A DNA stretch of 33,807 bases from Nitrospiraceae bacterium (GTDB lineage: Bacteria; Nitrospirota; Thermodesulfovibrionia; UBA6902). Under the pieces are notes generated by a model that was not told where the DNA came from, did no database searches, and was given only the letters and a program-made list of their open reading frames with translations. The stretch spans positions 1,869,254 to 1,903,060 of the forward strand of contig CP070632.1 of the NCBI GenBank assembly GCA_020356065.1. The letters are read 5' to 3'. Both the position numbers and the translations under genes were made by a program. Positions 8,723 to 13,857 of the stretch are shown piece by piece; position 1 is the stretch's first letter, and the number at the start of each line of letters is the position of its first letter.

Positions 8723-9031
8723 ATGAGGTTGCAGAATTGCTGGGAATACAAAAAGTGCGGCAGAGAACCCGACGGCCACAATACAGATGAGCTGGGAGTC
8801 TGTCCTGCCACTGTTGAAGAAAAGGCCGATGGTATCAATGATGGAACCAACGGGGGAAGGGCATGCTGGGCCATTGTCGGCACGATATGTAAGGGAACAG
8901 TGCAGGGGACATACGCACTTAAGATACTCAACTGCCTGAAATGTGATTTCTATAAAAAAGTTCTCACTGAAGAGAGTTGGGGATTCAAGAGCGGGGACGA
9001 AATCCTTAAGATCATCAATTCAAAAACCTGA
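8723..9031 (+). CDS. Small two-CW domain cysteine-rich protein
   Basis: The 102-residue protein contains two Cys-Trp modules. The first is NCWEYKKCGRE...CPA near the N-terminus, and the second is ACWAIVGTICKG...NCLKCDFYKKV in the middle. This two-CW arrangement is common in sulfate reducers, Nitrospirota and related anaerobes, where it appears alone or attached to signalling domains. The eight or so cysteines probably bind a metal or a redox partner, but the function is not established. There is no signal peptide or membrane segment. An ACAGGAGAT Shine-Dalgarno precedes the ATG. The gene stands alone between the purB terminator and a 410-base non-coding stretch. Confidence 0.85.
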   Translation: MRLQNCWEYKKCGREPDGHNTDELGVCPATVEEKADGINDGTNGGRACWAIVGTICKGTVQGTYALKILNCLKCDFYKKVLTEESWGFKSGDEILKIINSKT

Positions 9032-9441
9032 TTGCCTGCATGCACGTATCAGTGATCCTCCCTGAGCTGTTATAATATCCTTACATAATTCAATTTCGGT
9101 ATCAAAATTATAGAGGTTATATTTCGCTTACGGTTCCAAAGGAAGCATGTAAGCGTTATTAGAGCCTATCTTAAATATCTAGTTATGATAAAAACACTCA
9201 TTGACATCCCTCGACTTGATCGGGGAATCCAGGCTTTTTAAGGGCTTCTGGATACCCGCTTACGACATGCGGGTATGACAGAAATGACATCTTTAATCTT
9301 GAGACAGGTTCTGGTTACGCGTTCTATGTTAACAGGCACAAAAGGGAATGCCTGACTGCCAGTATGTCCAAATAACAAATAGCGAATAACTTTTAACGTT
9401 CTCTTATTAGCAGAGTTAATCATGAACAATGATGGCTCAAT
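9032..9441. other. Intergenic stretch with one palindromic repeat
   Basis: About 410 bases without a supportable gene. It holds the CTGGAT palindrome described separately; the short minus-strand frame across 9238-9459 runs through that repeat and has no family resemblance. The remainder is AT-rich with no clear structure. Confidence 0.6.
9248..9281. repeat. CTGGAT...ATGACAG palindromic repeat, copy 1
   Basis: CTGGATACCCGC and GCGGGTATGACAG flank a 9-base loop; ATACCCGC (9252-9259) pairs perfectly with GCGGGTAT (9269-9276). A second member of the same family, CTGGATGCCGGC...GCCGGAATGTCAG, is at 28172-28204. The preceding CCC...GGGGAATCCAG segment (about 9208-9232) looks like part of the same unit. 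It resembles REP/MITE-like palindromes common in repeat-rich genomes. Confidence 0.7.
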
Positions 9442-10461
9442 ATGAAAAGACGTTTTCATGTCATTATGAAATTTCTGCTGTTCATGTTCACATTTGTCTG
9501 CAGGGTAACATTTGCAGCTGCAAATGAGACGTATACCAATCCGGTTCTTGTTTAAACGATAATCAAGGAATTAAAAAACAAGGGCGAAAAGCATGTTCAT
9601 CAGTTCACCGGTGTATTGGGAATCGGTGATCCTACAGTCATTATTCATAAAGGCATATATTACCTATACCCTACAGGAGACAACCGTGGCTATGATGTCT
9701 ACATTTCATCTGACCTGATACACTGGCAAAAAGGCCCAAGGGTATTTCGCACCAGCGAGAAGGGGGCATGGGCACCGGACGTGTTCTATGATGAAAAGAG
9801 CGGGAAATTCTATCTCTATTATACGGTAAACAGGCGTATTGGCGTTGCAGTCTCTGACAGTCCTGACGGGATCTTTAACGATCTGAAAACCCTGGTAAAC
9901 GACGCAATTGACGCCCACATGTTCAAGGACGATGACGGGGAATACTATCTTTACTTCGTGAAATTCCCGGCTTTCTTTATATATGTACAGCCCATGGAAT
10001 CATTAACAGCGAAACGGGGTACCCCTGTTAAGCTTATTTATCCTACGGAACAATGGGAAAAGAGACACACACCGCTAACCGAAGCGCCCTGGATATTGAA
10101 GCACAGGAACTCCTATTACCTTCTCTATTCTGCCAGCTGAGCTAACACCATGGAATATGCTATTGGGTATGCAATGGCAAAAAGTCCTCTCGGGCCATTC
10201 ACCAAATATCAGGGCAATCCGATTTTTAAAAAAGGAGAGGGAATCTACGGGCCGGGACATGCCAGTGTAACCCGGGATCTCAACGGCAGGTTATGGATGG
10301 TATACCATCAGCAGAGAGGGGAAAAAACAGGCTGGGACCGGATAATATGCATTGACCGCATCTGGTTTGATGATAAAGGAGTGTTACATGGAAAAGCTAC
10401 CAGAGGAACCCCGCAGCCCCCGCCTGTTACAGATGTTACCTTGACCGGATATTCCAGATAA
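9442..10461 (+). pseudogene. Glycoside hydrolase family 43 enzyme, interrupted by two in-frame stops
   Basis: One continuous frame runs from the ATG at 9442 to the TAA at 10459, broken only by TAA at 9553 and TGA at 10138, with no frameshift. The first 27 or so codons encode a signal peptide (basic start, hydrophobic FLLFMFTFVC core, cleavage near TFAAA), so the ancestor was exported. The five-bladed propeller family GH43 (arabinosidases, xylosidases) uses three carboxylates. All three appear retained: IGDPTVIIHKG (base), AIDAHMFKDDDG (pKa-modulating Asp) and TEAPWILKH (general acid). YGPGHASV supplies the late His motif. The TGA falls in YYLLYSAS-stop-ANTMEYAIGYA, where homologues read through, so a Trp codon TGG changed to TGA is the simplest history. 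No good Shine-Dalgarno precedes 9442. Recoding is possible but unsupported. Confidence 0.8.
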
Positions 10462-10485
10462 TCATATCACAGTGTATGATTATCT
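10456..10485. terminator. Hairpin spanning both stop codons of convergent genes
   Basis: AGATAATCATA (10456-10466) and TATGATTATCT (10475-10485) form a perfect 11-bp stem with an 8-base loop. It includes the TAA of the GH43 pseudogene (10459-10461) and the TAA of the minus-strand receiver gene (10480-10482). It probably serves as a shared terminator, although neither strand has a long T-run after it. Confidence 0.55.
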
Positions 10486-10926
10486 AGCTGATCCGTATTT
10501 TGGAATCACTTCAGACTTGATATAGTTGCCAAGCTCCCCTATGGTCTGGGCAAATTCTTTGTCATCTGAATATTTAATGTAATAATTTTCACATCCCAGT
10601 GCATTACACAATTCAATCTGTTTATTGTCATCGACAACAGAAAGCATAATTACAGGAATATTACGGACCCACTTGTCATTTTTTATTTTTCTTAGAATCT
10701 CGGTGCCATCCATATCGGGCATTCGTATGTCAAGAAGCAGGATGTAAAGGACGTCATCCTTCCGGTAGGGTCCTGTTCCTCTCTTAAAAATAAAATCCAG
10801 AATGGATTTGCCATTTCCAAAAAACAGAATATCATTGGTAACCCCGGCGTACTTCAAATTGCTCGATATCAGCCCGGCATGCCCGTCATCATCTTCAGCC
10901 AATAATATCACTGCATCAGTTTTCAT
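10480..10926 (-). CDS. Stand-alone CheY-like response regulator (Rcp1-type receiver)
   Basis: From the ATG at 10926 the product is 148 residues and consists of a single receiver domain. The acidic cluster AEDDDG is at residues 10-15, the phosphoacceptor Asp66 is in LLLDIRMPDMDG, the switch serine is in VIMLSVVDD, and the conserved lysine is in YYIKYSDD. The extra loop before the phosphorylation strand (FKRGTGPYRKDDV) is typical of Rcp1-like regulators paired with phytochrome or hybrid kinases. There is no output domain. A longer start at 10968 adds 14 residues without family support; the 10926 start has a GGGGA five bases upstream. No kinase is adjacent, so the partner is unknown. The gene converges on the GH43 pseudogene. 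Confidence 0.85.
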   Translation of the reverse strand: MKTDAVILLAEDDDGHAGLISSNLKYAGVTNDILFFGNGKSILDFIFKRGTGPYRKDDVLYILLLDIRMPDMDGTEILRKIKNDKWVRNIPVIMLSVVDDNKQIELCNALGCENYYIKYSDDKEFAQTIGELGNYIKSEVIPKYGSAR

Positions 10927-11186
10927 AATTCCCCGATGAACAATAGCCATTGCAAGCACCGGCTGCAATCAAAATGTTTCCTGATAATTAAAACCCTCAA
11001 TTTAGTATAACTGATGATTCTTAAATGTCAAACAATTTATTTTTCTTGTGAATAAATTTTCTGATGCTTTTTTAAACAGTATAAAAACTATATCCTTTTA
11101 CATCTTATGCATCAGGCTGGTAAGAATATTGCAGATCAAACTTGGAGGTGATTAAAGAAAGTGAGCATTTTTTGATATAATTGCGT

Positions 11187-13266: not shown

Positions 13267-13422
13267 CTACATTATCTTATCAATTAACCTGACCCACATG
13301 TCATGAAGGCCTATACTTTTGTAAACGGCGATAACACCGAAAATTAGTAAGGATGAACCCACGAATTTCATCGATGGGTATAAGATTTTAACCTTGATCA
13401 TTCTTTTCGTTTCTTTACTCAA
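13267..13422 (-). CDS. Possible 51-residue single-pass membrane protein
   Basis: A TTG at 13422 opens a 51-residue frame ending in TAG (13267-13269). The peptide starts (M)SKETKRMIKVKILYPSM, has a hydrophobic segment of about 16 residues (SSLLIFGVIAVY), then a short SIGLHDMWVRLIDKIM tail. The basic N-terminus plus a single membrane helix is a plausible small membrane protein. A GGAAGAG sits a few bases before the TTG. An internal ATG eight codons in (13401) is an alternative start. There is no recognisable family, and it lies in otherwise non-coding DNA, so it may be chance. Confidence 0.3.
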   Translation of the reverse strand: MSKETKRMIKVKILYPSMKFVGSSLLIFGVIAVYKSIGLHDMWVRLIDKIM

Positions 13423-13857
13423 TTATCTCTTCCTTTCATTCCGCCCCTAAGTACATCAGGTGTGCCCTGACTCTTACAGTGACCTTCCCACTAGCCTTGA
13501 TAACCTTCAAGGTCGCCAAAGTTGAGGAGAATATTATGTGTGGATCATAACAAATACAGACGTTAATTATCGTAAAATTTATTATCAATTATAGAATATT
13601 TTAATTTTACATTATGCTGTATTTAATGTCAAGTTATATTACATTTAATTATTAATTTTATTATTAAACAGTATATTATTAAACTGTAAACTAATATTAC
13701 GCATATACCTTGATACATGGGCATTCCTCATATGTTTGACTTCACTGGTTTATTATCAGGAAATATACAGGAAAAATGATTTATTGAAGGTCATACTACT
13801 GTCCTTTATAATTCAAAAAGCAGTATGCTTTGATAAAAATAAAAATGATTTTCCAGA

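Follow-up and report, generated by a model that had tools for sequence, protein, structure and literature searches.

The nearest solved enzyme of glycoside hydrolase family 43 (GH43) to the gene described here is 4qqs, the structure of HoAraf43 of Halothermothrix orenii, for which the authors name Asp17, Asp126, Glu195, and the metal-binding His256 (PMC4356313). In the passages of that paper on the fold, blade 4 comprises residues 190-244, and blade 5 comprises residues 255-306 and includes His256 (PMC4356313). In-frame stop codons in genes with dN/dS < 1 have been reported to be widespread in bacteria (PMC7918605). The same paper, where it turns to artefacts and persistence, favours stops shared between species as a safeguard against artefacts and describes in-frame stops as tending to be short-lived (PMC7918605).

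Here we analyzed a stretch of 33,807 nucleotides (the window) from a Nitrospiraceae bacterium of the class Thermodesulfovibrionia, whose genome (G000) is a single contig of 3,168,268 bases (window at G000:C1:1869254-1903060). The window contains a GH43 gene with two in-frame stop codons, which is probably an accessory enzyme gene in a recently inactivated copy.

A GH43 frame with two in-frame stops

The frame at 9442-10461 (forward strand) translates as 340 codons with exactly two internal stops and a terminal TAA. The first stop, TAA at 9553-9555 (codon 38), falls between a putative signal peptide and the catalytic domain, and the second, TGA at 10138-10140 (codon 233), falls in blade 4, aligned with Cys214 of 4qqs. 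Translation thus confirmed the two stops that a preliminary description had reported in an otherwise continuous frame, and no frame-breaking indel was found relative to the other 17 full-length copies, as that description had also held. With X placed at both stop codons, the read-through protein matched the Pfam profile Glyco_hydro_43 (PF04616) with 175.8 bits (E 1.6e-51, cut-off 32.2), and residues 53-329 aligned to 4qqs (E 7.5e-51). Because a significant homolog extends along most of its length, the frame is more than a chance one.

Counterparts of the named residues were located by counting along the printed alignment of 4qqs with the window: Asp17 corresponds to the catalytic Asp of GIGDP (9628-9630), Asp126 to the modulating Asp of IDAHMF (9910-9912), Glu195 to the catalytic Glu of TEAPW (10081-10083), and the metal-binding His256 to the His of GPGH downstream of the TGA (10258-10260), all on the forward strand. 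The three catalytic carboxylates, on blades 1, 3, and 4, are all kept in the alignment to 4qqs and the 17 other copies, so the early remark on their retention was correct. With stops at 9553 and 10138, the frame does not encode an uninterrupted product that closes the five-bladed propeller. The locus is a broken GH43 gene rather than a demonstrated enzyme. Judging from the look of the N-terminus, the product was probably exported or secreted, and its substrate perhaps consisted of arabinosyl or xylosyl groups, by analogy with the nearest solved enzymes.

The G000 genome gave one GH43 match only, with no second copy. The 27 other window genes have no internal stop, which is true by construction, as they were taken from a list of open frames; names such as purB, LepA, and NtrC are those we presume from their sequences, and Pfam tested some of them.

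Relatives, distribution, and neighbourhood

An uninterrupted GH43 copy is present in G001, a genome of the same genus (contig CALZMZ010000065.1), with 81% identity to the window from 9616 on and 76% with a longer query; it is the intact allele that the preliminary description had proposed to look for in close relatives. The gene order purB - GH43 - response regulator - PD-(D/E)XK is common to both genomes, and the response regulator receiver gene (10480-10968, reverse strand) adjoins GH43 in G001 too, as seen by neighbourhood comparison and Pfam. Nine further genes of the window, none of them truncated at the contig edge, each align to the G001 contig in one continuous piece. We extracted 18 full-length copies, of which 16 have no stop, that of the window has two, and that of G017 has one TAG at a different column (in G226 and G228, the one stop listed is that which terminates the gene). 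The window copy thus carries disabling changes relative to intact orthologs, and neither of its stops is present in the other 17 copies. At the column of the TAA (9553), these have Glu (12), Asp (4), or Arg (1). At the column of the TGA they have Gly (GGN, 7 of 17) or Ser (AGY, 10 of 17) and never Trp, which contradicts the earlier suggestion that the TGA had replaced a Trp codon; the residue of 4qqs is Cys214.

Five of the 21 assessable copies are broken, and the lesions are all different. These 21 are the 18 full-length copies together with that of G214, the second copy of G212, and that of G009, a contig-edge piece of G212 (C337) being left out. Besides the copies of G000 and G017, the broken ones are those of G214 (internal deletion, frame change, and TGA), the second of G212 (frameshift; this genome is listed as 66% complete), and that of G009 (C-terminal remnant of ~40 residues). 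Faulty assembly may account for some of these lesions. Within the family to which the window belongs, one copy is intact and three are broken. The remnant in G009 lies in a 74-codon frame (L057 6755-6979) that fuses another start to the last ~40 GH43 residues and has no Pfam match; its start resembles what we take to be an IS3-type transposase.

GH43 matches were found in 4 of the 37 genomes of the window's family and in 19 of the 230 genomes of the class (E <= 1e-10); across the phylum, 11 of the 395 genomes sampled had one at E <= 1e-30, every one within the class. Within the class Thermodesulfovibrionia, GH43 is patchy in its distribution and an accessory trait. A search of genome contigs with the single GH43 protein returned only G001 and a distant Lachnospiraceae protein, where an alignment query might find more, and no relative was confirmed in viral contigs. 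Among the matches listed in a literature search on GH43 and glycoside hydrolases, there was no mention of Thermodesulfovibrionia, and no paper on the G001 isolate was found by isolate name or accession stem.

In the gene tree, holding together the three copies of family f21 was rejected (AU p 5.3e-6), as was holding together the two of f15 (AU p 0.0024), while the three copies of the window's family held together were not rejected (p 0.39). The tree thus breaks up families, which indicates that GH43 moved between lineages or was lost differentially. LepA failed as a species marker for G017 and G216, where its best matches look like other GTPases. In G002, lepA (L095 and L099, G002:C155) matches in two pieces (query 1-427 and 448-597), and the gap is perhaps a frameshift or an assembly fault. 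The GC content of GH43 is ordinary (45.2%, against a median of 44.7% for 28 window genes), and this composition, together with the same place in G001, argues that the gene is not a very recent arrival. The proposal of an acquired gene now being lost was therefore sustained in part: patchiness in the class and the broken-up families agree with it, whereas a very recent arrival does not fit. The GH43 copy of G017 is not beside purB.

The other two genomes of the genus gave no GH43 match. In G002, purB and PD-(D/E)XK are each located close to the end of a contig, and PD-(D/E)XK is preceded by a GH63-like frame (L053 10-531), in the place taken by the response regulator and GH43 in G000 and G001. 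In G003, purB is followed by a match (77% over 66 residues) to a small Cys-rich frame that follows purB in the window (8723-9031); this frame has no match in the G001 contig and none in Pfam. Against the G001 contig (L051), blastn gave no match to the window stretch 9031-9441. Within it lies a dispersed repeat (9200-9292) that ends 150 bases upstream of the GH43 start. This repeat matches the genome at 12 places, its own among them, with one other copy 99% identical over 69 bases, and has 7 matches in G001, 6 in G002, and 18 in G003. An inverted repeat (10446-10495; 21-nt arms, 81% complementary, 8 nt between) lies between the convergent GH43 and response-regulator genes. Further downstream, the convergent Adhesin_E-like and NtrC-type genes flank a stretch (13267-13536) that is conserved in G001 (255 bases, 83% identical) and G002 (270 bases, 81%). 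Frames of >=100 codons are absent from it, Rfam gave no match at the gathering score, and it is possible that it is an unknown RNA or regulatory element.

Constraint, timing, and alternative readings

Between G000 and G001, the dN/dS of GH43 was 0.182 (340 codons) or 0.161 (327 codons), values that are approximate, as dS is near 0.9. The nine other genes compared gave 0.05 to 0.143 (response regulator, 0.143; PD-(D/E)XK, 0.133), and GH43 is the highest of the 10, which leans towards relaxation, as do the lineage-novel residues (28 in G000 vs. 20 in G001, with 40 unpolarised). Fifteen intact copies have 107 invariant columns in common; at these, G000 and G001 differ at 6 each and G017 at 8, and leave-one-out differences for the 15 intact copies range from 0 to 9; three of the changes are private to G000 and three to G001. 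The window branch is no longer than that of G001 (0.18 vs. 0.29, and 0.21 vs. 0.25). Under a neutral model, ~10-11 missense changes would be expected at the 107 conserved columns before the second nonsense change; the probability of three or fewer is 0.17-0.20, and that of none, the relevant value should the three private changes be older than the inactivation, is 0.02-0.03. Two stops without an excess of missense changes are somewhat unexpected. Judging from these probabilities, a recent death is compatible with the data, though two stops this early would be a little lucky, and little relaxation is to be expected if inactivation was very recent.

Very recent inactivation, one of the readings offered beforehand, is best supported, by the uninterrupted copy of a close relative in the same neighbourhood, the private stops, and the lack of clearly relaxed constraint. 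Purifying selection acted on the frame during most of the period after G000 and G001 split, and base substitutions would then have given the TGA in blade 4 and, just past the putative signal peptide, the TAA. A protein initiated at 9442 would end after 37 residues, and initiation past the TAA would still stop in blade 4, with loss of all of blade 5 and the metal-binding His. We infer that no functional enzyme is made from this gene.

It is unlikely that the organism has an intact gene and that errors of assembly or consensus produced one or both stops. Conserved columns without a sign of relaxed constraint would agree with such errors, and both stop-bearing full-length copies, those of G000 and G017, come from single-contig assemblies; however, another single-contig assembly, G197, carries the gene uninterrupted, and the nine other window genes are unbroken against the G001 contig. 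Indels are the usual errors of uncorrected long reads, whereas the GH43 lesions are substitutions.

Still less probable is low-level readthrough of the stops with GH43 remaining in use, a reading to which the constraint at conserved columns without visible relaxation would also conform. The ribosome would have to get past stop codons of two kinds, including a TAA, and TGA is the terminator of 10 of the 26 window genes counted. Moreover, neither stop is common to the other 17 copies, whereas the reported survey, in its treatment of such genes, concentrates on stops shared by species (PMC7918605). A gene that is not dead and yields a little of its product, perhaps under regulation, through readthrough of both stops is, by a little, harder yet to credit; if true, it would explain two stops without a visible loss of constraint. 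A changed genetic code was rejected, the 26 genes ending in TAA (12), TGA (10), and TAG (4).

We give very little credence to translation that starts past the TAA, for example at TTG 9616, and yields a functional cytosolic fragment ending at 10138. The open frame 9616-10140 (174 codons) does hold all three catalytic carboxylates, but the fragment would lack the last part of blade 4 as well as blade 5 and the metal-binding His, by the blade limits given for HoAraf43 (PMC4356313). No clear ribosome-binding site was seen by eye before 9616, and 16 of the 18 full-length copies encode the whole enzyme.

Selenocysteine at the TGA has next to no chance of being correct and was rejected mainly on a comparison of hairpins. 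It was considered because G000 has SelA (629.6 bits, cut-off 267.9), a SelB gene, and a single in-frame TGA in each of two formate dehydrogenase alpha genes; in addition, 4qqs has Cys at the TGA column, and the hairpin after the GH43 TGA agrees with a loose rule for SECIS hairpins known from the literature. That rule is also satisfied by 1,627 of 5,701 control codons, though, and the hairpin is no more stable than shuffled sequences (z -0.29), of which 76 of 200 fold equally well. Nine formate dehydrogenase TGAs (the two of G000 and seven of relatives, among 23 TGA-bearing matches listed) all have GGTCT at 18 bases after the TGA, within the predicted apical loop in 8 of 9; the GH43 hairpin has GGTATG at 25 in its loop and thus does not resemble these. 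Cys occurs at the TGA column in 0 of the 17 other copies, no tRNA-Sec scored over the cut-off in G000 (150 of 206 candidates scored), and the upstream TAA would remain even if the TGA were selenocysteine. Thus readthrough, already held to be the less likely reading, proved to be so, and its selenocysteine form was without support. As separate observations, selA and selB (L111 9953-14803; G000:C1 ~3055952-3060802) are separated by an opposite-strand transposase gene (DDE_Tnp_1), and, with part of the candidates scored, tRNA-Sec over the cut-off was found in none of four genomes of the window's genus and in 18 of 25 genomes.

Comparison with described systems

Most likely, then, the window GH43 gene represents ordinary gene decay in a known enzyme family, with the mild oddity of two stops and almost no other decay. 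It offers a clean case of a young pseudogene before sequence decay shows, in a lineage of which several genomes carry differently broken copies of this accessory enzyme gene. If it were still read despite its stops, it would bear on how often bacterial in-frame stops are mislabelled as pseudogenes.

Among the orthologs of Thermodesulfovibrionia, that of G001 is the same gene with the same neighbours, and it is uninterrupted, unlike that of the window. HoAraf43 and the window protein are alike over the aligned residues 53-329, in the three carboxylates, and in the metal-binding His, as far as these are described for the former (PMC4356313); HoAraf43 is intact, whereas the window copy is interrupted twice and belongs to a family of putative activity. 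Like the genes described in the survey of in-frame stops (PMC7918605), the window gene combines in-frame stops with a still visible signature of purifying selection. It differs in having two stops, both private to one genome among the copies seen.
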